From contig JAGVLJ010000017.1 in NCBI GenBank assembly GCA_020049855.1, positions 65,239 through 129,238 of the forward strand: 64,000 nt of DNA, read 5' to 3'. Below the pieces are notes generated by a model. It was not told where the DNA came from and did no database searches. It was given only the letters and a program-made list of their open reading frames with translations. Below, in pieces: positions 4,601 through 17,980 of this stretch (its first letter is position 1; each line of letters opens with the position of its first letter). A program made the translations under genes and the position numbers. Source of the stretch: Bacteroidia bacterium (lineage in GTDB: Bacteria; Bacteroidota; Bacteroidia; UKL13-3).

Positions 4601-7600
4601 TTGGCACCTGAGTTCAAAAATATTTTTCTAGTTACACTTTCATCAGCGGTTGTTTCGCTGATGTGGGGTGCCACACCCACCGGAAAAATTACAAGAACTA
4701 ACTTAGGTAGCCTGTATAACTGGGTGGAAGAGGATGGTCCGAAAGGGGATAGTACTAAAAAAAATATATTACCTTATCCTCTAAAAGATAGGAAGCCCTG
4801 GGAACGAAAAAAGAAAAATCCCCTCGACTTGCAAGACCCTCCTAATGTAGAGGAAGAAGTAGTGCTTGATGAAGAAGGGAAAAATTTTAATATCACTAAC
4901 AAAGTAGGAAATCAGCCCTACGGTTTGCCTGCCACAAAGGAGTTTAATCAGTTTTTAAAAGACGAGCAGAAAAAAACACAACAACAATATTTTCAACAGC
5001 GCTCTAAAGCACAAAACTTTGTTAAGGGAGGGGGAATCATTCCCCCGTTAAATGTTGGGCCTAAAATTTTCGACCGCATTTTTGGAAGCGGGGTAATTGA
5101 TATCAAACCACAAGGTACAGCCGAGTTAATTTTCTCGGGAAATTTTAATACGGTTCGAAATCCTGCTTTCACTGCCCGTCAGCAGCGTACGGGTCAGTTT
5201 GATTTTAAACAAAAAATTCAATTGAATGTGCAGGGAAGTGTGGGCGATAAACTGAAGGTAAGCATGAATTATGATACCGAAGCTACTTTTGATTTTGAGA
5301 ACCAGACCAAATTAAATTACTCAGGGAAAGAAGACGAAATTATCAAAAAAATTGAACTTGGTAATGTGAGTTTACCTTTACAATCATCTTTGATACAGGG
5401 TAGTCAAAGTTTGTTTGGTGTTAAAACACAAATGCAATTTGGGCGACTTACCTGGACCTCGGTTTACTCCCAGCAAAAAGGTAAAATTACTGAGACCGAA
5501 ATTTCTGGCGGGGCACAAATTACCAAGTTCGATATTCAGAGTGATAACTATGAAGCCAATAAGCACTTTTTTCTCTCCCACTTGTTTCGTAATAATTACA
5601 ATTCGTGGTTGTCAAAATTGCCCATTATTTCTTCTCCTGTTTTAATTACGCGGGTAGAAGTATGGGTAACCAACAAATCGGGGGCGTATGAAGGAGTAAG
5701 AGATGTGCTTGGAGTGCAGGATTTTGGAGAATGGGACACAGCATACATGGCAAATAAAACCCCCGATGTGGTTGATTTTAATGGGGAGCGCGTACCTTCC
5801 AACAGGTCAAATAAATTATACAATACGTTTGCACTTAGCGGTGATTCTTCTCTTCGTAATTCGTATGAAGTAATTCAAACTTTGCAGAATCAGAATAAAA
5901 TTTATTCTACCTATCTGGTACCGGTTCGCGATTATCAGTTGCTCAACTACGCCCGCCAGTTATCAAGTAATGAATATACTTTGAACGAGAAGTTAGGGTA
6001 TATTTCTCTAAACAACGCACTGAATTCAGATGAGATGCTGTGCGTAGCCTATGAGTACACGATTAACGGAGTTCCTTATAAGGTTGGTGAATTTTCTACC
6101 GATATTCCAGCTAATTCCGCCCGTCCGAATGTATTGTTTTTAAAAATGTTGAAAGGACAAAACATCAGACCCGATTATCCCATGTGGGATTTAATGATGA
6201 AAAATATTTATTCGTTGGGCGCGTATCAGGTACAGCCCAAAGATTTCAGATTAAACATTATTTATGCTGACGACCCTTCAGGATCGGATTTAAACTATAT
6301 ACCTGCTGCCGGAGAAAGCAAATTACAGGGCGTTCCTTTGCTAACTGTACTTAATCTTGATCGAATTAATGTACAACAGGAACCTACACCTGATGGTAAT
6401 TTTGATTTTTTGGAGCGGTATACGGTGATTTCGTCAAGCGGACGAATTATTTTTCCTGTCACAGAACCGTTTGGAAGCTATCTTCGAACGAAATTTGTAG
6501 ATTCAACGAAAGCCAACTATTATACTTTTCAGGAACTGTATGATTCTACTCGATTTGCTGCAATACAAATCCCTCAAAAGAATAAATTTTTTCTTAGAGG
6601 GAGTTACCAAAGTGCTGCCGGATCAGAAATTCCATTGGGGGCTATCAACGTACCTAAAGGTTCGGTAAAAGTTACCGCCAATGGAACACTGCTTACTGAA
6701 GGTTCGGATTTTATTGTAGATTATTCTGCGGGTCGTGTTCGTATCATCAATTCCGGGTTATTATCATCAGGTGCGGTGATTAAGGTTTCTTCCGAAAGCA
6801 ATACGATGTTTAATATCCAGCAAAAAACACTTATCGGTTCACGTTTTGATTTTAAAGCAAGCAACAATGTGATTTTTGGGGGTACGGTGATGTACCTGCG
6901 CGAAAAACCACTTACGCCAAAGGTAAATATTGGGGAGGAGCCTATTGCAAACATGGTGATTGGGGTTGATGGTTCAGTAAATAAGCAATCTCGATGGTTA
7001 ACCAAAATGGTTGATAAACTTCCGTTCATTGAAACCAAGGAGATGTCGTCAGTTCAGTTTGGAGGTGAATATGCGCGTTTATTTCCAGGAGTACAGAAAA
7101 TGATTGGAAAGGGGGGTAATGCCTATATTGACGATTTTGAAGGAAGTGAAACCCCCATTGATTTAAAGGGACAGAGTAACTGGATGCTTGCAAGTATTCC
7201 GCAAGGGCAGCCAACTTTATTTCCAGAAGCAAGTCTGGGGAATAATAATCTTGGGTTAGGCTTCAAGCGAGCCTTATTATCGTGGTATAGTATTGATCCG
7301 TTGTTTACCCAAGATATGAATCTTACTCCAAAACATATTAAGGAGGATTTGAACCAACGAAGCAGTCACATGGTTCGAGCAGTAACTATTGATGAAATTT
7401 GGCCAAGTAAAAAAATTCAACAAGGTATGCCCACCACCCTTCAAACATTTGATTTGGCTTTTTACCCGTACAAACGCGGGCCGTATAATTATACCATTAA
7501 CGGGTTGAATGGAGCCGGGCAATTAACCAATCCTCAAAGTAATTGGGGAGGTATAATGCGAAGGTTAGAAACAAACGATTTTGAAGCCGCTAATATTGAT

Positions 7601-10600
7601 TACATTGAAATATGGATGATGGATCCGTACTTGGAATATAAAAAATACGGGATTGCCAATCCCGGAGAATTATATATTAACCTCGGAAATATTTCGGAAG
7701 ATGTATTGAAGGATTCGCGTAAGAGCTTTGAAAATGGATTACCAAAAGATATAGACTTAGCGGGAGTCAAAACGGATACCACTGCATGGGGAAGGGTGCC
7801 AACAGTGCCTACTATTAATTTTGCGTTTGATTCTGATCCGAATGCACGCAAAAGGCAGGACGCAGGCTTAGACGGGCTGATTGATGACGATGAATTAGGC
7901 TATTTTAATGCGAGCTATCTTGATAAAGTACAAACGGCTTTTGGTTCGGCTTCGCAGGCTTACCTCAATGCGCTTGAAGATCCATCAGGCGATAATTTTC
8001 ATTATTACCGGGGTACTGACTTTGACAATAACAGTGTCCCTATTTTGGTTCGCTACCAGCGTATCAATTCCCACGAAGGAAACTCACCAACCCCCGATCA
8101 ATCACCTGAAAGTTATCCAACCGCCATTACCAATACCCCCGATGATGAAGACTTGAATAAAGATTTCACCGTTAATGAGTTGGAGGAATATTATCAATAC
8201 AGGCTGGACATAAGTGAAAATGGATTACAGGTAGGTAAGAATTATGTTACTGACCGGGTAGTGAAATATGATAAAGAACTTGCAAATGGGAAAAGAGATA
8301 GTGCCGTGTGGTTTCAAATAAAAATTCCTGTACACGATTACGAAAGCAAGATTGGTCAGATAACGGATTTTAAATCCATCCGTTTTATGCGTATGTTTTT
8401 GCGAGGATTCTCCGATAGTATGGTTCTTCGTTTTGCACAAATTAATCTGGTTCGTGCCGACTGGAGGAAATACACCAATTCACTAATACGACCCGGGGAA
8501 CATATCCCCATTGACCCAAATGATTTAACAGATTTTGTTGTATCAACTGTAAACATTGAAGAGAACAGTAAACGAACCCCAATTATTTATACGTTGCCTC
8601 CCGGCATTATTCGGGAGCAGGATATATCCAATCCGCAACCGGTACAGCTAAATGAACAATCGCTTTCGTTAAAGGTTTGTAACCTTAAGGATGGAGATGC
8701 AAAAGCAGTTTTTAAAACCACCGTTTTTGATATACGAAATTATAAAAAACTTAAGATGTTTTTGCACGCAGAAGGTGATAATCTCAAGCCGGGCGAGTTG
8801 ACTGCATTTATTCGGTTAGGTACTGACCTTACCAATAATTACTATGAGTATGAAATTCCATTAACCCCTACTGCTTATGGAACGGCTGATCCGAACTTAA
8901 TTTGGCCTTCGGTAAATGAAATAAGTGCCGATATTGAGGATTTTTATTTAGCTAAACAGAACAGAACAAGCAATAACGTAAGTCCGACTGTTCCGTACAC
9001 TATGAACATAGGCAGCAGAAAAATTACGGTACTTGGTCTTCCCGACTTAAGCAGCGTAAAGGTGATTATGCTTGGTATTCGCAACCCGAAACGCGGTGAC
9101 GATAACCCATTAGATGATGCTTTGCCAAAGTGTGGTGAAGTTTGGTTTAATGAATTGCGTGTATCAGATTTTGTTAATAGAGGAGGATGGGCTACTACCG
9201 GTCGTGTTGTTACAAAACTGGCTGATTTCGGAACATTAAACGGTTCGGTTAACTATTACAGTGTAGGCTGGGGTGGTATTGATAAAAAATTAAATGAAAG
9301 AAGCTTAAAAGAGCAATTGCAATTAAGTTTTGCTTCTAACTTTGAGTTAGGTAAATTTTTCCCGGTTAAATCCGGAATAAGTATTCCTATGTTTTATTCT
9401 TATTCACAAACTTCAATTAAACCGCTTTACAATCCGTTAAATCCTGACATAAAATTAAGCACTGCCTTAAAAACAAGTAACCCAACGGAACAACTTCGTA
9501 TTATTGCGGCATCTGAAGATTTTACTACACAACGAAGTATTAACTTCACCAATATAAGAAAGAACAGAGTTGGTAGTCAAAAATCGCATGTGTATGATGT
9601 GGAGAATCTGAGTTTCTCGTATTCGTATTCGGAAGTTTATAAGCGAAACGAGTTTATTGAATACCAACTTACTAAAAACTATCAGGTTGGAGGGGCTTAT
9701 TCTTTCAACTTTCAGAATAAACCAACGCAACCGTTTAAAAAAATTAAACCCAAAAGTTTAGTTTTAATTAAGGAGTTTAATTTTAACTTACTGCCCAGTG
9801 TGGCCACTGTGCGGTACACTTTTGATAGAAGGTATGGCGAAACTATTTACCGAAATAATGATAGTAAAAATACCATTATTGCACCACTGTATGATAAGAA
9901 TTACACCATGACTCGGTTTTACGAATTGCGATGGGATTTAACACGATCCTTAAAGCTCGATTATACCGCCACAGTAAGTGCTCGTATTGATGAACCTGCC
10001 GGAAAAATTAATTCACAGGAGGCTAAGGATAGCATACGAGCCAATTTATTCAGGCTTGGCCGTACAACAAATTTTAATCAAACAGCTGCGTTAACGTATA
10101 ATGTACCGATTAATAAAATCCCGGCTTTAAACTGGGTAACAGTAAGCACGAGGTACAGTGCTCAATATACCTGGCAAACTGCCCCGCCCGCTGCCGATAG
10201 TTTGGGGAATACAATTACCAACCAACAAGCTAAATCACTTAATGGTCAGTTAAACATGACTGGACTTTATAACAAGTCGAAATTTTTACAAAAAATAAAT
10301 AACCCTGCGTTAGCTAAAAAACTTGAAGAAAAGGCAAGGGAAGATGAAAGAAAAAAACCGCGAAAGTACACCCTGAAAACGCGCCCCGGATCAAGTAAAA
10401 AAGACACAATTTGGGAAAAGGTAAAAGCGAAGAAAAAATTTGAAGCTTCACCAATAGTTAAATCAGGATTTCGTTTATTGATGTCATTGAGGAGTGTTAC
10501 TTTTTCGTATGGACAAAGCAATAACACCACGTTACCGGGTTTTAATCCCAAGCCAGGTAATTTTGGGCAGGATTGGGGCTTAAATGCACCTGGGTTGGAC

Positions 10601-11800
10601 TTTATTTTTGGTTCACAAGATCCGGATTTTAGGTATCGGGCAGCACGAAATGGTTGGATTAGTAATGATCTGCGAATTGCATCACAATTTTCTCAGGGTA
10701 AAACCACCAATTTTAATATCAGAGCAATTCTTGAACCTGTGCCCGATATGCGGGTAGAGATAACCATGAAGCGTGATTTTAATATAACACGAAGTGCAAA
10801 TTTTAAATTTGATACCACAGGTAATTTTAATGATTTCAGAGACCTTGCTGCTATTGAAAGTGGCACTTATAGTATGACATTCAATATTTTTAATACGGCC
10901 TTTAAGGATCCTAATGCAACGTTTAAAGAATTTGTAGGAAGCAGGTATTCTATTGCCAAACGTTTGCAAAACAGCAATTCGTTCTATTCGGCCGGAACAG
11001 ACCCTAAAGGTTTTCCCAAGGGATATAGCGGTGGGCAGCAGGAGGTCTTGTTGTATTCCTTCCTATCGGCTTATTCGGGTAAAAGTGCCGACCGACAAAA
11101 ACTTCAGCTTTTTCCAAGTTTACCCGATATGAATTGGCGAATTACTTATAACGGATTAAGTAAAATGGAGTTGTTAAAGGAATACACCTCCAATGTAAGC
11201 ATTAGTCATAGTTATAGTTCAGTGTATAGTATTCCCAAATACACCACCTCTGTAAATTATTTTCCGGGTCTTGATAGTTCAGGACTTATTCAACCTAAAT
11301 ATATTGTTTCATCAGTAGTTATAACTGAACGGTTTGCCCCTTTGCTTGGTGTTGATGTCACGTTTTTGAATAGTTTAACAACCAGTTTCAGTTACAATAC
11401 TGACCGTAGTTTAAATCTGGCTATAACCAATTCACAAATTACTGAGTCAAGAAATAAGGAATATACATTAGGAATTGGGTACAGACCTAGAAAACTTACA
11501 ATACCTTTCATAAGCGCCCGAGGACGCCAAACGGTATTAAGAAATGATATTAATATGCGAATGGATTTTTCGATTCGCGATAATAAAACCATAGTTCGAA
11601 AAATTGACCAGTCGGCAGAAAATCAACCTGTGAATGGGAATAAAGTAATAACTATACGCCCCACAATTGATTACATGATTAATGAGAAGTTGAACATGCG
11701 AATTTTTTACGACCGAAGGGTAACAAAACCGGCTACTTCAGGTACATTCCCAACCGCCATTACAAGTGGTGGATTTTCGATGAGGTATACAATTCAGTAA
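4601..11800 (+). CDS. sprA: Cell surface protein SprA, type IX secretion translocon
   Basis: At 2,399 aa this is the size of SprA, the very large outer-membrane beta-barrel that forms the type IX secretion pore and is needed for gliding in flavobacteria. The N-terminus has a signal-peptide-like stretch (FLVTLSSAVVSLMWGA). Recognisable SprA_N regions contain GTAELIFSGNFNTVRNPAFT and QQRTGQFDFKQKIQLNVQGS near residue 180. KGGNAYIDDFEGSETPIDLK lies near residue 840. GRVVTKLADFGTLNGSVNYY begins the second barrel half, and the C-terminus is a beta-strand, GGFSMRYTIQ. The only usable start is TTG at 4601, because an in-frame stop lies 9 bases upstream. It is probably co-transcribed with ruvA and supplies the exporter for the T9SS cargo at 27.8-31.5 kb. 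Confidence 0.97.
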   Translation: MAPEFKNIFLVTLSSAVVSLMWGATPTGKITRTNLGSLYNWVEEDGPKGDSTKKNILPYPLKDRKPWERKKKNPLDLQDPPNVEEEVVLDEEGKNFNITNKVGNQPYGLPATKEFNQFLKDEQKKTQQQYFQQRSKAQNFVKGGGIIPPLNVGPKIFDRIFGSGVIDIKPQGTAELIFSGNFNTVRNPAFTARQQRTGQFDFKQKIQLNVQGSVGDKLKVSMNYDTEATFDFENQTKLNYSGKEDEIIKKIELGNVSLPLQSSLIQGSQSLFGVKTQMQFGRLTWTSVYSQQKGKITETEISGGAQITKFDIQSDNYEANKHFFLSHLFRNNYNSWLSKLPIISSPVLITRVEVWVTNKSGAYEGVRDVLGVQDFGEWDTAYMANKTPDVVDFNGERVPSNRSNKLYNTFALSGDSSLRNSYEVIQTLQNQNKIYSTYLVPVRDYQLLNYARQLSSNEYTLNEKLGYISLNNALNSDEMLCVAYEYTINGVPYKVGEFSTDIPANSARPNVLFLKMLKGQNIRPDYPMWDLMMKNIYSLGAYQVQPKDFRLNIIYADDPSGSDLNYIPAAGESKLQGVPLLTVLNLDRINVQQEPTPDGNFDFLERYTVISSSGRIIFPVTEPFGSYLRTKFVDSTKANYYTFQELYDSTRFAAIQIPQKNKFFLRGSYQSAAGSEIPLGAINVPKGSVKVTANGTLLTEGSDFIVDYSAGRVRIINSGLLSSGAVIKVSSESNTMFNIQQKTLIGSRFDFKASNNVIFGGTVMYLREKPLTPKVNIGEEPIANMVIGVDGSVNKQSRWLTKMVDKLPFIETKEMSSVQFGGEYARLFPGVQKMIGKGGNAYIDDFEGSETPIDLKGQSNWMLASIPQGQPTLFPEASLGNNNLGLGFKRALLSWYSIDPLFTQDMNLTPKHIKEDLNQRSSHMVRAVTIDEIWPSKKIQQGMPTTLQTFDLAFYPYKRGPYNYTINGLNGAGQLTNPQSNWGGIMRRLETNDFEAANIDYIEIWMMDPYLEYKKYGIANPGELYINLGNISEDVLKDSRKSFENGLPKDIDLAGVKTDTTAWGRVPTVPTINFAFDSDPNARKRQDAGLDGLIDDDELGYFNASYLDKVQTAFGSASQAYLNALEDPSGDNFHYYRGTDFDNNSVPILVRYQRINSHEGNSPTPDQSPESYPTAITNTPDDEDLNKDFTVNELEEYYQYRLDISENGLQVGKNYVTDRVVKYDKELANGKRDSAVWFQIKIPVHDYESKIGQITDFKSIRFMRMFLRGFSDSMVLRFAQINLVRADWRKYTNSLIRPGEHIPIDPNDLTDFVVSTVNIEENSKRTPIIYTLPPGIIREQDISNPQPVQLNEQSLSLKVCNLKDGDAKAVFKTTVFDIRNYKKLKMFLHAEGDNLKPGELTAFIRLGTDLTNNYYEYEIPLTPTAYGTADPNLIWPSVNEISADIEDFYLAKQNRTSNNVSPTVPYTMNIGSRKITVLGLPDLSSVKVIMLGIRNPKRGDDNPLDDALPKCGEVWFNELRVSDFVNRGGWATTGRVVTKLADFGTLNGSVNYYSVGWGGIDKKLNERSLKEQLQLSFASNFELGKFFPVKSGISIPMFYSYSQTSIKPLYNPLNPDIKLSTALKTSNPTEQLRIIAASEDFTTQRSINFTNIRKNRVGSQKSHVYDVENLSFSYSYSEVYKRNEFIEYQLTKNYQVGGAYSFNFQNKPTQPFKKIKPKSLVLIKEFNFNLLPSVATVRYTFDRRYGETIYRNNDSKNTIIAPLYDKNYTMTRFYELRWDLTRSLKLDYTATVSARIDEPAGKINSQEAKDSIRANLFRLGRTTNFNQTAALTYNVPINKIPALNWVTVSTRYSAQYTWQTAPPAADSLGNTITNQQAKSLNGQLNMTGLYNKSKFLQKINNPALAKKLEEKAREDERKKPRKYTLKTRPGSSKKDTIWEKVKAKKKFEASPIVKSGFRLLMSLRSVTFSYGQSNNTTLPGFNPKPGNFGQDWGLNAPGLDFIFGSQDPDFRYRAARNGWISNDLRIASQFSQGKTTNFNIRAILEPVPDMRVEITMKRDFNITRSANFKFDTTGNFNDFRDLAAIESGTYSMTFNIFNTAFKDPNATFKEFVGSRYSIAKRLQNSNSFYSAGTDPKGFPKGYSGGQQEVLLYSFLSAYSGKSADRQKLQLFPSLPDMNWRITYNGLSKMELLKEYTSNVSISHSYSSVYSIPKYTTSVNYFPGLDSSGLIQPKYIVSSVVITERFAPLLGVDVTFLNSLTTSFSYNTDRSLNLAITNSQITESRNKEYTLGIGYRPRKLTIPFISARGRQTVLRNDINMRMDFSIRDNKTIVRKIDQSAENQPVNGNKVITIRPTIDYMINEKLNMRIFYDRRVTKPATSGTFPTAITSGGFSMRYTIQ

Positions 11801-12646: not shown

Positions 12647-13705
12647 TTACACCATCCACTTTTTGCCGTAGCGATAATGCAGGGCTCCTCCTTCAATTTC
12701 AAGGGGGGATTCAAAATTACTAACATAAAGTTGCCCTGTACCTAATCCCTGTGGAATTTCAATTGGTAATGTTGCCGTAAACTGTGCAATAGCGTTTAAA
12801 CCGATATTGCTTTCCAGTGCAGAGGTTATCCAGTAACCAATGGATAATTTATTTGCTCGTTTAATCCAGTTTTGGCAATGTGTAAAACCTCCAAGCAAGC
12901 CAGGTTTAAGAATGAGAAAGGAAGGGCTGATTTTTTTTAACACCATATCGTCTAACTTTGCCTCGGCTAAACCAATAAGCTCTTCGTCCAGCGCAATCGG
13001 AATCTTACTTTTATGACAAACTTCATTCATTAATTCCCATTGTCCGGCTTTAACAGGTTGTTCAATGGAATGGATATCAAATCGGGCTAAATCGGTTAGT
13101 TGTTCGGCAACGGAATCTGCGTCAAATGCTCCGTTGGCATCCAGCCTTAATTCAATATGAAACGCATTGTATTTTTTTCTTACGGTTTCCAGCAACCTGC
13201 ACTCTTCATCAAAATCAAGAGCGCCTATTTTTAGTTTCACACTAGTGAATCCGGCATTGATTTTTTCCTCTACCTGTTTAAGCATGTTTTCGGCAGTATC
13301 CATCCACACAAGTCCATTTATTGGGATTGCCTTTTTTGATTGGCTGAATGACGAGTTAAAAAGGATGAACCGGCCTCCGTTTTTCCAATCAAGTACGGCA
13401 CTCTCAATGGCAAATAAAATAGACGGGTAAAAACGAATATCGAGCGCATAGGCAAGTTCTTCTACCGGGAGGGAAAGCAAGGTGGGATTTTCGGTAAGCC
13501 TTTGGCATGTTTTTGTAATAATTGATTCGTACTCCGGTTTATCATCCAAGCTCAGACCGGGTATAGTGCCCGCCTCTCCCCATCCGGTTGTTACCCCATC
13601 ATCAATTTTAATCAGGTAGAAAGTGCGGGTTGTCAATATTCCTCGCGAAGTAGTTGCAGGCTTTTTAAAATGAAAGCTATACGGATAATACGAGCAGGTA
13701 ATCAT
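12647..13705 (-). CDS. menC: o-Succinylbenzoate synthase (enolase superfamily)
   Basis: MenC dehydrates SHCHC to o-succinylbenzoate in classical menaquinone synthesis. The 352-aa protein has the enolase-superfamily barrel residues in order: SVKLKIG (catalytic K-x-K) near residue 155, RLDANGAF, DIHSIEQPV, PIALDEEL (metal ligands D, E, D), then FLILKPGLLGG with the second catalytic lysine. Dipeptide epimerases share this fold. The position immediately after menA decides for MenC: the menA stop TAA is followed at once by the menC ATG. Confidence 0.88.
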   Translation of the reverse strand: MITCSYYPYSFHFKKPATTSRGILTTRTFYLIKIDDGVTTGWGEAGTIPGLSLDDKPEYESIITKTCQRLTENPTLLSLPVEELAYALDIRFYPSILFAIESAVLDWKNGGRFILFNSSFSQSKKAIPINGLVWMDTAENMLKQVEEKINAGFTSVKLKIGALDFDEECRLLETVRKKYNAFHIELRLDANGAFDADSVAEQLTDLARFDIHSIEQPVKAGQWELMNEVCHKSKIPIALDEELIGLAEAKLDDMVLKKISPSFLILKPGLLGGFTHCQNWIKRANKLSIGYWITSALESNIGLNAIAQFTATLPIEIPQGLGTGQLYVSNFESPLEIEGGALHYRYGKKWMV

Positions 13706-14641
13706 TTAAATGAAGATGCCGTATGAAAAAAACAGAAAACTAAGCAAATTACTTGCGCCAAATAATAGAACAAGTAGTAGAGTACTCAACGAAAGTTGCT
13801 TCAGGAATCCGTTGTACAGGAGGGAAGGAGGGTTTTTTACTATCCGCATGCTGTTAATGATAATGAGCGGGAAACCGAGTATATAAATAAAATCAAAAAA
13901 ATTACTGTAACGGATAACTGAGAAAATAAGCAATAAACCCAGAGCAGTGGCAATAAGAATAACGTGATATTTTTTAGCGGCTTTTTCCCCAAGCCTCACC
14001 GGGATGGTGATTTTTCCACTAGCCTTGTCATTTTCAATATCACGAATATTGTTTACATTCAAAACGCCTACCGCAAGTAGTCCGGTTGAGGCTGCCGGAA
14101 GTACCATAATCCATTTCAGGTAACCGATTTGCAGAAACGCTGAGGCTAACACTGCAAAAAAACCGAAGAATATAAATACCGCAAGGTCACCAAATCCTTT
14201 ATAGCCATAGGCAGTCTTACCCATAGTATATTTTACAGCAGCAGCAATAGAAACAAGTCCAAGTGCGAACAGGAATAAAAACGGGTAGTTCAATTCTCCA
14301 AAAGCCTTTATCAGCAGGGTAACTCCGGTGACCAACGAAATCACAACAAAGAAAATAATCATCCATTGCATTTGTTTCGGACGTATAACTCCGCTTTGTA
14401 ATGAGCGCATATTCCCGATTCGCCTGTCATTATCCGTACCTTTCATAAAGTCACCGTAATCATTCGCCAAATTGGATAAAATTTGCAACTCGAATGCAGT
14501 AACAAGGGTAAGAAAAAAAATGGTAAAAGACGAGGTGTTTGTACTATCATAAATGAATGCCAGAATATTTCCCATGAGCACACTGGATGTAGCCAAGGGA
14601 AGGGTTCGTAATCGGAATGCATTTATCCAGGCTTTGTTCAT
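13706..14641 (-). CDS. menA: 1,4-Dihydroxy-2-naphthoate polyprenyltransferase
   Basis: MenA attaches the polyprenyl tail to 1,4-dihydroxy-2-naphthoate in the cytoplasmic membrane to form demethylmenaquinone. The 311-aa UbiA-family protein has eight or nine hydrophobic helices. It carries the two aspartate-rich prenyl-diphosphate motifs, NLANDYGDFMKGTDNDRR near residue 58 and NVNNIRDIENDKASGK near residue 195. The N-terminal AFRLRTLPLATSSVLMG is typical of MenA rather than UbiA. It forms a two-gene unit with menC, which follows without a spacer. Confidence 0.93.
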   Translation of the reverse strand: MNKAWINAFRLRTLPLATSSVLMGNILAFIYDSTNTSSFTIFFLTLVTAFELQILSNLANDYGDFMKGTDNDRRIGNMRSLQSGVIRPKQMQWMIIFFVVISLVTGVTLLIKAFGELNYPFLFLFALGLVSIAAAVKYTMGKTAYGYKGFGDLAVFIFFGFFAVLASAFLQIGYLKWIMVLPAASTGLLAVGVLNVNNIRDIENDKASGKITIPVRLGEKAAKKYHVILIATALGLLLIFSVIRYSNFFDFIYILGFPLIIINSMRIVKNPPSLLYNGFLKQLSLSTLLLVLLFGASNLLSFLFFSYGIFI

Positions 14642-14652
14642 TTCTTCTCGTA

Positions 14653-15201
14653 TTATTTTATTTCGCTCAGTTTTTTGCCGTATTGGATCACTAGAAGTAA
14701 AAACTGTTCTTTTAATTTCCCATTACTGAAGTTAGGCGGGTATGGAGAACTATGCCCTTTAGAAATTTTTTGAATAAAGCGGTCATCTTTGATGTAGTAA
14801 CTACAACTGAAAATTACGGAAGGCTTTTTTCGTATTTCACCGTTTGAGAACGTATCGGATTTTAATGCTTGAATTTGCTCATAAACGAAAATAAGTTTCC
14901 CTTCGTATAAATAGAATTCTCTGGTGCGTCTCCCCAAGTCGTGTTTAGTATGTTCTTTGATAATGCAAAGTTTACTTTTGTTATAGTATCCGAATAGTTC
15001 GCCAACTATATAACTTTTATTGTTTTCCAAATCAACTTCACTAATAAACGTTGATTTTTTTAAGTAGTTGGGAAACTCAGCCAGTTCAAGGTACTTGTAT
15101 TTTATATTGGCTATATCCTGCTTAAAATCGGTTTGAGCAAAAACAAATTTTACGTTGCTTGCCAGCAGAAACATAAAGAAGAATATTCTTATACGGTTCA
15201 A
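14653..15201 (-). CDS. Exported protein of unknown function, last gene of the CsgG/LPP20-like operon
   Basis: I do not recognise a family. The 182-aa product has a cleavable signal peptide (IRIFFFMFLLASNVKFVFAQ, cleavage after the AQ region) and no later membrane segment. The body is rich in Lys, Tyr and Phe and looks like a beta-rich periplasmic domain. The start is TTG at 15201, overlapping the TGA stop of the upstream lipoprotein gene by 4 bases, which indicates translational coupling. The context suggests it works with the two lipoproteins encoded before it. Confidence 0.6.
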   Translation of the reverse strand: MNRIRIFFFMFLLASNVKFVFAQTDFKQDIANIKYKYLELAEFPNYLKKSTFISEVDLENNKSYIVGELFGYYNKSKLCIIKEHTKHDLGRRTREFYLYEGKLIFVYEQIQALKSDTFSNGEIRKKPSVIFSCSYYIKDDRFIQKISKGHSSPYPPNFSNGKLKEQFLLLVIQYGKKLSEIK

Positions 15202-16610
15202 TTGAAAATCAGTTTATATAAATCAGGAATAATAATATTCGAAATATACTCAGTAGCATTTTTATAGGCGTTCATGCCTGCTTCCTCAGCAGTTAATTTA
15301 ATTCCTTTAATATCTGTTTTAGATTGGGTGTAAATAACCTCATTTCTTCTTTTTACAGTTAAGTTCAATTTTAACTGAGCGTTTACCATTTCGTAAGCCA
15401 CACTTCCCTTTGTAGTGTTGGCATCAAGTTCTATAATATAATCAGCTTCCTTTTTGTCGAGGGTGAGTTGTAAACCTGCATCAAAAAGTTTCTTATCAAT
15501 TAATTTCATCAAAATGGGTTCTTCAAGGTCGGTATTTATATTTTTTTCAATACTTCTGCTGTAAAATTTTGGCGGAATCACGGTTAATAAAATGCTGCCG
15601 GTTGGCTTTACAATGCGGTCAATGAAAGGTTTTATATCGGTCCAGTTGGTATCAGTTGCACAAATGGCATCTATATCAGGGGTAGCATCAATTTGCTGAT
15701 AGGCCTGATTGCTGCTGAGTTTTTTCAATATGAAATTAATTTTTCCCTGTTCATTTGAACTGGCCTTTTCTAACAATTCTCCTTTGCCCGATGAGAACTT
15801 AAAGACCACGGGAAAGTTAGCGGCTTTTTGTCCTGATAAGGTAGTGTTTACAATTAAAACTTTATTTAACGGCATTCCAAATTTTACGGTCGCAGCACTT
15901 TCAGCAAAGTTTATCCTTATGGAATTAATAAGACTTTGCAAGTTATTGAAAGACTCATTCACTAAAAATATCTGTTTACCCTTGTAGTCTGCTTCTACTG
16001 CTTCATTCAGGTAGTTTTTCATTGAAGCTAATGCCTTACAGTAAAATAAAATAGCTGATGCATATTGATTGCCGGCTTTGAATTTATCGGCTTGTTCGAA
16101 AAAGTTTAAGGAGGTGCTTGAGGCGCGTAACAGTTTTTCTTGCTGTCTTTTTTTGTACTCGTATTTCGACAGGCGGAGAAACACCCAGTATTCTTTTTCT
16201 CCGTCATATTCATCAACAATGGTATATCCTTCTATATTCGTATTTACACTGGCTTTTGACGCAGTGAGGTAATCCTGTTGAAACTTATAATCACGGTTAA
16301 TGGTGATGAGGTATGAATTGCTGTTAATCTTTACCTCAATCTGTGAACCAAGCATATATAAAGCTTGTTTTCGCGCCTGATTTTTGTACTCGCGGTCACC
16401 GGGCTTTTTTTCAACACCAGCTATACCAATATAATAGTCCGGGTCAATGGGCTGCTTCACTGCCCAAGAAGGCAGGTTAGCAACTGTGGTAATTTCAACG
16501 GATTCTTTGGGTTGGTTATTTTTTTTTGAACGCTGCGCATGGCATCCTGTCAGCATTAAAAATAGAAAGCTCCCTGTTATATATACTACAATTGATTTTT
16601 TTTTGGGCAT
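15198..16610 (-). CDS. LPP20-family lipoprotein with FlgT-like layout
   Basis: The 470-aa product has a lipoprotein signal ending LMLTGC (lipidated Cys near residue 23). The region from about residue 45 to 165 matches the LPP20 fold: LPSWAVKQPIDPDYYIGIAG, then KNQARKQALYMLGSQIEVKI and EYWVFLRLSKYEYKK. A middle beta-rich segment (VFKFSSGKGELLEKASSNEQ) looks Ig-like. The C-terminal half, with LIDKKLFDAGLQLTLDKKEA and AGMNAYKNATEYISN, resembles the C-terminal part of FlgT/LPP20-type proteins. The ATG overlaps the stop of the upstream CsgG-like gene in a TAATG junction. No precise function can be assigned; an outer-membrane assembly role is inference. Confidence 0.7.
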   Translation of the reverse strand: MPKKKSIVVYITGSFLFLMLTGCHAQRSKKNNQPKESVEITTVANLPSWAVKQPIDPDYYIGIAGVEKKPGDREYKNQARKQALYMLGSQIEVKINSNSYLITINRDYKFQQDYLTASKASVNTNIEGYTIVDEYDGEKEYWVFLRLSKYEYKKRQQEKLLRASSTSLNFFEQADKFKAGNQYASAILFYCKALASMKNYLNEAVEADYKGKQIFLVNESFNNLQSLINSIRINFAESAATVKFGMPLNKVLIVNTTLSGQKAANFPVVFKFSSGKGELLEKASSNEQGKINFILKKLSSNQAYQQIDATPDIDAICATDTNWTDIKPFIDRIVKPTGSILLTVIPPKFYSRSIEKNINTDLEEPILMKLIDKKLFDAGLQLTLDKKEADYIIELDANTTKGSVAYEMVNAQLKLNLTVKRRNEVIYTQSKTDIKGIKLTAEEAGMNAYKNATEYISNIIIPDLYKLIFN

Positions 16611-17980
16611 TATTGGTAGCTAATCTGGCGGTGGTATTCTATAATATCAAAAGCAATATTGCGCGCAATTTTTCGAAGAAGTTCACTCTGCAACTCTTCG
16701 TTTGTTTTCAGTTGCTGCCTGCCTGAAAACATAGTTCTGAATGAATTGACTGTGCTCATATTTCCGTAAATCATATCATTAATTGGGTATATCTGATTCA
16801 ATTTAACGGTTCTTGCTGGGATAGCATAATGAATTTCATCGGTTTGTTTATCGGCAAGGGTTTTGTTGTATAAAATTTTCCCTGTCTCGGATGAAACAAG
16901 TTTAAATTCGGCAGCAAATTTAAAAGTAATAGATGAATAATATTCATTGTAATAGAATGGAGATGACTCCCTGCGGAGAAGTGTTTCGCCCGTAGCACTT
17001 TTGTAGCTTACGTTATAAATTTCGTATCCCAATTTATAATTTTTTGTCGGCTTTGTTTCGCTGGTAGTGTATTCAATAATATTGATAAAAAATGCATTTT
17101 GGATACCAATAAGTTTTCCGGCACTGATGGCTTTGTTTTCGTCAACTACTCCTGTCATATTCAGTTTTTGTTCGGCAATAAGCTTATCAATATTGTCCCG
17201 GTCAATTAGTTGTATGAATGGGTTGTTTGCTTTTGTAATTTCATTTGTAATCAATCCGGCCATTACCCGTTGTACAGCCTTATTTGCCTTTTTATCATCA
17301 ATGAAAAAGCCAATGGTAATTGTTCCTTTCTCCAAAGCTTCTGCTTGCAGTTGTTCTGTATTTTTATACTTACATGTGTAGCTGCATATTTTAGTAAATT
17401 GGTCATATGCTTTTACATATTTCTTTTGATTTAATAAATCAACCCCCGATCTGTACAAAGGCTCAAGGGTAGCTGTTTCTTTAAGCGACTTAACATCTTT
17501 ATACGAGGGGTCGAAGTTCAGTACTTCTTTAAAACATTTTTCAGCTTCTTCAAAGTTATCTTTTTTTAAAAACTCAAGCCCCTCATTATATTTTTGCTCA
17601 AGATATTTGCCTACGGCAGTTTTATAATCGGTTATGTAATTGTCGTCCCATTTGAGGTAAACACCAAGTAATCCCAAATCCTTAAAGTATTTTTCTGCAC
17701 TTCGGTAAGCGTAAACAGCTTCTTTCAGTTTATCTGTATTGTATGACCTGAAAAATTCTTCGAAATAATCATTTAGCACCTTTTGACCCGTATTTTTTAG
17801 GCCAATTTGTGCCTCAATATTTCGATTATTGTATCTAACAGCATCGAAGTAATAATTGGCAGCTTCCCTGTACATTCCGGCACTTTCTAATTTTTGTCCT
17901 TTCTTGGTCAGCGACCGTGATGGGTTGCAGGCAAACAGTAAAAGGGGAGCGAAAAGGAAAAGGAGGTATTTTTGCTTCAT
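16610..17980 (-). CDS. CsgG-like lipoprotein with TPR-type repeats
   Basis: A 456-aa protein beginning MKQKYLLFLFAPLLLFAC, a lipoprotein signal with Cys18. Residues 30-195 contain tetratricopeptide-type helices (REAANYYFDAVRYNNRN, NFEEAEKCFKEVLNFDPSYK). From about residue 205 a CsgG/HfaB-like domain follows: TITIGFFIDDKKANKA, QLIDRDNIDKLIAEQKLNMT, then GVVDENKAISAGKLIGIQNA, the typical CsgG block. CsgG proteins form outer-membrane export channels or act in envelope assembly. Here the gene leads a tightly overlapping operon with an LPP20-type lipoprotein and an exported protein. No curli genes are visible. Confidence 0.75.
   Translation of the reverse strand: MKQKYLLFLFAPLLLFACNPSRSLTKKGQKLESAGMYREAANYYFDAVRYNNRNIEAQIGLKNTGQKVLNDYFEEFFRSYNTDKLKEAVYAYRSAEKYFKDLGLLGVYLKWDDNYITDYKTAVGKYLEQKYNEGLEFLKKDNFEEAEKCFKEVLNFDPSYKDVKSLKETATLEPLYRSGVDLLNQKKYVKAYDQFTKICSYTCKYKNTEQLQAEALEKGTITIGFFIDDKKANKAVQRVMAGLITNEITKANNPFIQLIDRDNIDKLIAEQKLNMTGVVDENKAISAGKLIGIQNAFFINIIEYTTSETKPTKNYKLGYEIYNVSYKSATGETLLRRESSPFYYNEYYSSITFKFAAEFKLVSSETGKILYNKTLADKQTDEIHYAIPARTVKLNQIYPINDMIYGNMSTVNSFRTMFSGRQQLKTNEELQSELLRKIARNIAFDIIEYHRQISYQ

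Follow-up and report, generated by a model that had tools for sequence, protein, structure and literature searches.

A probable three-part lipoprotein system of the Bacteroidia and its possible assembly into an outer-membrane ring

What might proteins resembling CsgG and FlgT do in a bacterium with no flagellar or curli genes in view? The question is raised by three closely packed genes, which we call A, B and C, in the window analysed here, a stretch of 64,000 nucleotides from a Bacteroidia bacterium (UKL13-3; assembly GCA_020049855.1, contig JAGVLJ010000017.1, positions 65,239 to 129,238 of the forward strand). A sequence-only reading of this DNA had proposed that the three products form an envelope assembly or export machine. 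Our analysis indicates that A and B very probably belong to a conserved lipoprotein system whose third functional partner is a protein encoded elsewhere in the genome, D, and suggests tentatively that the three build a ring or disc at the outer membrane. The composition and co-inheritance of A, B and D are well supported. Below, the window genome is labelled G000 and its nearest species G002.

Domain composition of A, B and D

The three open reading frames (ORFs) of the window all lie on the minus strand, A at 16610..17980 (456 aa), B at 15198..16610 (470 aa) and C at 14653..15201 (182 aa). They confirm the initial description of three genes with export signals, two of them for lipoproteins, in frames that overlap by 1 base (A/B, 16610) and 4 bases (B/C, 15198-15201). 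All three genes are under purifying selection, with dN/dS (the ratio of nonsynonymous to synonymous substitution rates) against G002 of 0.028 for A, 0.056 for B and 0.088 for C, which are rough values at a dS of 1.1-1.8.

Protein A has a lipobox-like cysteine, C18; of 39 aligned A proteins, the window's included, 35 share a cysteine at this site, and two of the other four are incomplete. Its AlphaFold2 model (mean predicted local distance difference test score, pLDDT, 87.8) consists of a helical arm of tetratricopeptide repeats (TPRs; residues 20-219, 17324..17923, minus strand), with a Pfam TPR_2 match at 131-159 (E 2.2e-7), and an alpha-beta domain (residues 220-456, 16613..17323, minus strand) whose beta hairpin is very long and polar. 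Matches of the TPR part to 14-3-3 proteins were taken as generic helical similarity and set aside. The CsgG-type domain claimed for A is borne out by its relatives, of which the profile PF03783 matches 35/39 at E<=0.01; L044, at 34.3 bits, is above the cut-off of 20.8. The window's own protein, searched alone, stays under that cut-off (14.3 bits, E 0.026), so that recovery by profile search was borderline with the single sequence and succeeded with the relatives. The LpoB profile PF13036 matches 21 of the 39 (best 5.6e-8) and covers a stretch overlapping that of the CsgG model.

CsgG was also the best Foldseek match of the A domain (4uv2_F, E 1.5e-4). After realignment the DUF330 protein 2iqi_F ranked first (Z 13.0), with FlgT 3w1e (Z 12.5, 141 aligned, 3.1 Å), PelC 5t10_C (Z 12.1, 122 aligned, 2.3 Å) and CsgG 4q79_B (Z 11.1, 169 aligned, 6.9 Å) close by; only folds that VIA listed served as evidence. 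On the predicted model, then, the fold is of the CsgG/FlgT-M/PelC type, the Z scores being too close to single out one of these. When the profiles of A and E. coli CsgG were compared directly, only the strand that carries the TG motif aligned, and hhalign aligned only the signal peptide.

Protein B also has a lipobox-like cysteine (C23), conserved in all 23 aligned B proteins, the window's included. Its LPP20 domain, which the sequence-only reading had named, was found by PF02169 (27.2 bits, over the cut-off of 25.9) and in 23/23 aligned B proteins at E<=0.01, and the B profile matched the LPP20 lipofamily protein 4kzs (E 0.0075). In the AlphaFold2 model (mean pLDDT 82.7) this domain, at residues 45-161 (16128..16478, minus strand), superposes on H. 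pylori Lpp20 5ok8_B (Z 9.9, 102 aligned, 4.3 Å). Residues 226-345 (15576..15935, minus strand) form an insert resembling the beta-sandwich of immunoglobulin (Ig) and macroglobulin (MG) domains, with matches to 8cem_F (Z 10.6, 97 aligned, 2.7 Å) and intimin 6tqd_F (Z 10.4, 93 aligned, 2.5 Å). The C-terminal domain, residues 346-470 (15201..15575, minus strand), is of the FlgT-M/LptE/PelC type and matches 8h1s_B of LptDE (Z 10.2), 5t10_A of PelC (Z 10.0) and chain 8z5n_0 of the LPHT ring (Z 9.9, 120 aligned, 2.9 Å). B thus pairs an LPP20-type N domain with a TolB/CsgG-type M domain, as in FlgT, with the Ig/MG insert between them. The two-domain model agrees with the earlier description of B as FlgT-like, which we keep for its predicted domain arrangement.

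Protein D is an LPP20-like lipoprotein of ~195 aa that often stands beside B in the window's family. The window itself has none, and the genome carries two copies on other contigs (G000:C8:50345-50911 and C19:16500-17045). D was thus invisible from the neighbourhood of A and B alone, and was found through the surroundings of B in relatives and through co-inheritance.

Co-inheritance of A, B and D

We counted the three genes in 97 relatives and in 295 genomes across the class, two samples that share genomes. In the class sample A occurs in 58 genomes, B in 56 and D in 62, and 52 genomes, from 11 families, have all three. No genome has A and B without D; six have A only, four B and D without A, and six D only. 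Among the 97 relatives A is found in 50 and B in 47; 44 have the whole trio, 43 none of it and 10 a part. At genus level the counts in these relatives are 14, 15 and 16 of 53 for A, B and D, and every genus with A is also a genus with B and with D.

Some rows were left out of the class counts. For A these are partial matches in G361, G431, G481 and G065:C103, further partial matches (about 160-192 bits) in six f9 genomes that were already counted, and a second piece in G388, and two pieces in G390 were merged; for B they are the match of G431 and an additional match each in G478 and G358. Had every row been retained, the counts would be 61 for A, 57 for B and 62 for D of 295.

Where A and B occur together, A stands immediately before B, on the same strand, in 45 of 52 genomes and in 10 of the 11 families. 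Five of the seven exceptions belong to the window's family, and in another, G479, B stands at the start of a contig. B and D lie within 1.5 kb of each other on the same strand in 33 of 56 genomes, and in Fulvivirga sp. M361 (L091), a cultured carrier, all three genes are co-linear. A and B are both present in 40 genomes of the window's family, where they are adjacent in four, on different contigs in 35, and 1.3 Mb apart on a single contig in G023. Since 36 of these 40 genomes have them apart, A and B co-occur beyond what linkage alone would produce.

The order of three genes foreseen from the window was kept in part. The succession of A and B is kept in ten families, and C is found in 5/97 relatives, namely the three of three members of the genus and two weak matches (1.7e-4, 9.1e-4). 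C has a TTG start and an N-terminus that, judged by eye, resembles a signal peptide without a lipobox cysteine, and it had no match in either Pfam or NCBIfam at E<=1. A profile built on the genus's three C proteins found no further C in the loci searched, and none of 21 rows just downstream of B outside the genus was C-like, the best probability being 7.7% (L109); seven of these rows are D, and some loci are counted twice. Secure only in the genus, and with no counterpart downstream of B elsewhere, C was rejected as a core part. We therefore describe C as an exported protein within the operon and, because its distribution is restricted to the genus, leave it out of the conserved system; the regular third partner is D, outside the window.

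A wider scan of 84,980 species, one genome each, gave at least 39 A loci, all under Bacteroidota names; the number is a minimum, since the scan used one short peptide pattern. In 22 of the loci B is next after A, 16 lack B within the stretch analysed, and the A gene of L089 is cut by the contig end. Of the 16, 14 have the argS cluster just upstream and L096 ends at a contig end; A often follows argS in the window's family. In the 23 A-B pairs formed by the window and the 22 loci, the frames overlap in 20, by 1 base in eight and by 4 bases in five, the size of larger overlaps depending on the start codon chosen. A phylum-wide sample, run with the A profile alone at E 0.001, gave matches in 71/198 genomes, nearly all of them partial (TPR-only or CsgG-only); whole-length single matches were confined to G000 and G137, and in G270 two adjacent pieces jointly span most of the profile. 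The cut in the class sample was stricter.

At the cut used, full-length A without B or D is present in G416, G482 and G502 (f83 g211) and in G314 and G423 (f28 g168). Such A-only genomes possibly reflect losses or an independent use of A. Many genomes with the trio carry a second, more distant copy of D (about 75-145 bits). That of the window genome (G000:C19:16500-17045, the same as L125:7489-8043) lies beside genes for a glycosyltransferase and an M61 peptidase.

The B matches of five f9 genomes, and of a few more, contained in-frame stops that looked like recoding. In G065 (L043), the one of these that was checked, both ORFs are open, with a 1-base overlap between A and B. From this check the stops were taken as matches extending beyond the stop codon. 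The G065 locus is absent from our gene maps of the loci, as the ORF caller missed its A and B.

A possible ring and its rivals

In Vibrio-type motors the L-ring is surrounded by the H-ring, which is made of FlgO, FlgP and FlgT (PMC6375700). The basal discs of Campylobacter-type motors are built by FlgP, and discs at the outer membrane have arisen more than once, indeed several times (PMC5758724). The trio matches the Vibrio H-ring in its three kinds of part: a protein with a CsgG/TolB-type domain, a short LPP20-like protein and a long protein with LPP20 and M domains; the A and B domains also match the structures of FlgT and the LPHT ring, and FlgO is CsgG-like. FlgP itself is described as LPP20-like, and H. 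pylori has a comparable pair in HP1454 and HP1456, a long multi-domain LPP20-type protein and a short one, which share a common LPP20-type domain, are encoded in one operon, and in pull-down and two-hybrid experiments both interact with FlgP and FapH (PMC11756786). The C-terminal domains of A and B also match subunits of the dodecameric ring of PelC, an exopolysaccharide lipoprotein (Z 12.1 and 10.0).

The trio also departs from each of these. FlgI, the single flagellar marker that we searched for, was found in 0/97 relatives and in 3/14 controls, and, unlike the parts of the H-ring, A carries TPRs and B the Ig/MG insert. The H. pylori pair belongs to a flagellate host, and the available part of its description mentions no partner that joins TPRs to a CsgG domain. 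PelC differs in that A fuses the domain to TPRs. Full-text searches of mostly non-subscription literature, judged mainly from the listed papers, turned up no account of this domain combination; a word search of PMC5445135 met CsgG only in a reference, and a look-up of PelB and PelC in PMC4551309 gave nothing. The domain families themselves are already known.

CsgF and curlin repeats were likewise unmatched in the 97 relatives, with E. coli positive in both controls. As FlgI, CsgF and curlin repeats are all unmatched there, an ordinary flagellum and curli are both most unlikely to be what the trio serves in these relatives, which accords with the remark from the window that flagellar and curli genes are not in view.

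We suggest, by analogy, that A, B and D form an outer-membrane lipoprotein ring or disc that works like the H-ring for a non-flagellar client, a reading whose chance of being right we put somewhat short of even. A, B and the distantly encoded D would form a three-part assembly on the periplasmic face of the outer membrane; the sorting of the proteins to that membrane, the formation of a ring and the physical contact of A, B and D are steps that we infer. Like CsgG, PelC and FlgT, A would oligomerise by way of its CsgG/FlgT-M-type domain, and it would offer its TPR arm to the client. B would join LPP20-type and FlgT-M-type surfaces, as FlgT does, and the LPP20-like, FlgP-like D would extend the ring or disc. 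Operating without a flagellum, the assembly might be an accessory scaffold for another trans-envelope machine or contribute to outer-membrane integrity. The type IX secretion system (T9SS) and gliding apparatus is a possible client, one that the phyletic pattern does not indicate.

Several results weigh against such a ring. The CsgG/FlgT-M/LptE fold occurs also in lipoproteins that are not known to form rings, so the fold alone does not imply one. The Pfam library holds FlgT_N, FlgT_M and FlgT_C models; the FlgT models were matched neither by B (E<=1) nor by the 23 aligned B proteins (E<=0.01), the matches of A and B and of their relatives include neither FlgO nor FlgT models, and FlgT 3w1e superposes over the whole span of B only at 22.8 Å root-mean-square deviation. 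The assignment of D is weak: LPP20 was matched by 13 of 16 D proteins at E<=1 (best 5.2e-5), the D profile aligned with H. pylori Lpp20 5ok8 over nearly its full length at E 0.12, and the window genome's two copies reach no LPP20 match at E 0.05. Of the 68 carriers in the class sample, 16 lack at least one part, and the Fisher tests of co-occurrence, with their very small p-values, ignore kinship. The scanned selection of neighbour genes named no client and showed no recurrent theme. In H. pylori, finally, no binding was seen between HP1454 and HP1456, and a strain deleted for hp1456 did not differ from the wild type in flagellation, motility or bacitracin resistance (PMC11756786).

Other explanations share some of this evidence. 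A could be a CsgG-like outer-membrane pore, with B and D as accessories in the export of an unknown, curli-like substrate. Like E. coli CsgG, A is a lipoprotein with a CsgG domain, the top Foldseek match and the profile matches in 35/39 fit, and A keeps the strand with the TG motif. CsgG has two transmembrane hairpins per subunit, which flank this strand and form the pore. In the model of A a long hairpin (strands 295-327 and 333-363) stands just before the TG-motif strand, at what we take to be the place of CsgG's first hairpin; the second insertion is not predicted as strands, leaving no second hairpin. The two insertions of A are longer than those of CsgG and on average more polar, with mean hydropathy (GRAVY) of -0.97 and -0.95 against -0.23 and -0.05 and charged fractions of 0.30 and 0.26 against 0.17 and 0.21, in a comparison whose limits were set by the analyst, with one CsgG as yardstick and single A proteins ranging from 0.11 to 0.48 charged. 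With polar insertions in place of pore hairpins, a CsgG-type pore was set aside as unlikely for A, judged by hydropathy, one CsgG sequence and a predicted model. A also differs from CsgG in its N-terminal TPR arm. Curli export itself was discarded, as neither CsgF nor curlin repeats occur in the 97 relatives. We regard an export channel, one of the two roles first suggested for this operon, as very unlikely. An A-B-C machine with C as an essential small exported part is highly improbable and largely refuted: the 4-base overlap of C with B in all three members of the genus and the selection on C favour it, but beyond the genus C amounts to two weak matches in 97 genomes, with nothing similar downstream of B.

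A might instead be an LpoB-like activator that extends from the outer membrane to a peptidoglycan synthase; B and D would then be modulators. The LpoB matches in 21 of 39 A proteins agree with such a regulator of cell-wall synthesis, and the TPR arm could bind a partner. CsgG matches more of the A proteins, however (35 against 21), on the same stretch; LpoB has neither the TPR fusion nor partners like B and D; no penicillin-binding-protein gene was seen among the selected neighbours scanned; and the patchy distribution would be unlike that of an essential activator. This role is unlikely. That the trio forms an outer-membrane collar around the T9SS or gliding apparatus is distinctly unlikely, although GldM is present in 93/97 relatives and sprA, for the T9SS translocon (4601-11800; TIGR04189, 2541 bits), ends 2.9 kb before the low end of the operon. 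Since GldM is nearly universal and the trio is found in 44 of the same 97 genomes, the presence of a T9SS does not account for the patchy pattern; the trio could be at most an optional part, and the T9SS was rejected as an obligatory client.

To return to the ring, a stricter form of it, an envelope machine made of the three H-ring part kinds (CsgG/FlgO-like, FlgT-like and FlgP-like) and operating without a flagellum, is possible but doubtful. Were it true, it would point to a common descent of the H-ring of polar flagella and this machine from an older outer-membrane lipoprotein ring module that was later recruited to motors. A ring of any such kind would be a non-flagellar use of H-ring-type parts, would offer a testable origin for the accessory discs of flagella, and would mean that the Bacteroidota envelope contains one more uncharacterised complex of several lipoproteins.

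Gene surroundings and variant operons

The operon continues into two neighbours outside the system (window 12647-15201), menA (13706..14641, minus strand; TIGR00751, 247.3 bits) and, in the same run, a menC-like gene for o-succinylbenzoate synthase (12647..13705, minus strand; TIGR01927, E 6.6e-35, 120.9 bits, under the cut-off of 130.55). The gap between C and menA is 11 bases in the window, and in two sister species the genes overlap by 4 bases, so this genus may co-transcribe genes for envelope lipoproteins with genes for menaquinone synthesis. Scans for sigma-70 promoters and terminators gave only chance numbers, with a promoter type that may not suit the host. A gcvH-like ORF and a VanZ-family gene lie between sprA and the operon.

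The neighbours scanned across the loci included argS, HSP20, menA, menC, relA/spoT, carboxyltransferase, beta-lactamase-like and patatin genes. A protein of 730-760 aa is encoded after B in L083 (10849-13086), with genes of the same cluster in L088, L090, L095 and L109, and is followed by a carboxyltransferase gene where the contig reaches; the L083 copy had no Pfam match at E 0.001.

Three loci (L069:2438-9696, L078:5495-11015 and L143:5010-12214) have a variant operon, in which B and D stand in one run with a divergent CsgG-TPR protein whose CsgG domain comes first (PF03783, E 8.6e-15 in L078 and 1.5e-13 in L069). After this protein and before B and D the run encodes one or two proteins that look exported and have weak UVR matches, and then a further lipoprotein-like protein; the B proteins of L069 and L078 have no cysteine at the lipobox place. 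This arrangement suggests that B and D, as a pair, can also function with an alternative A.

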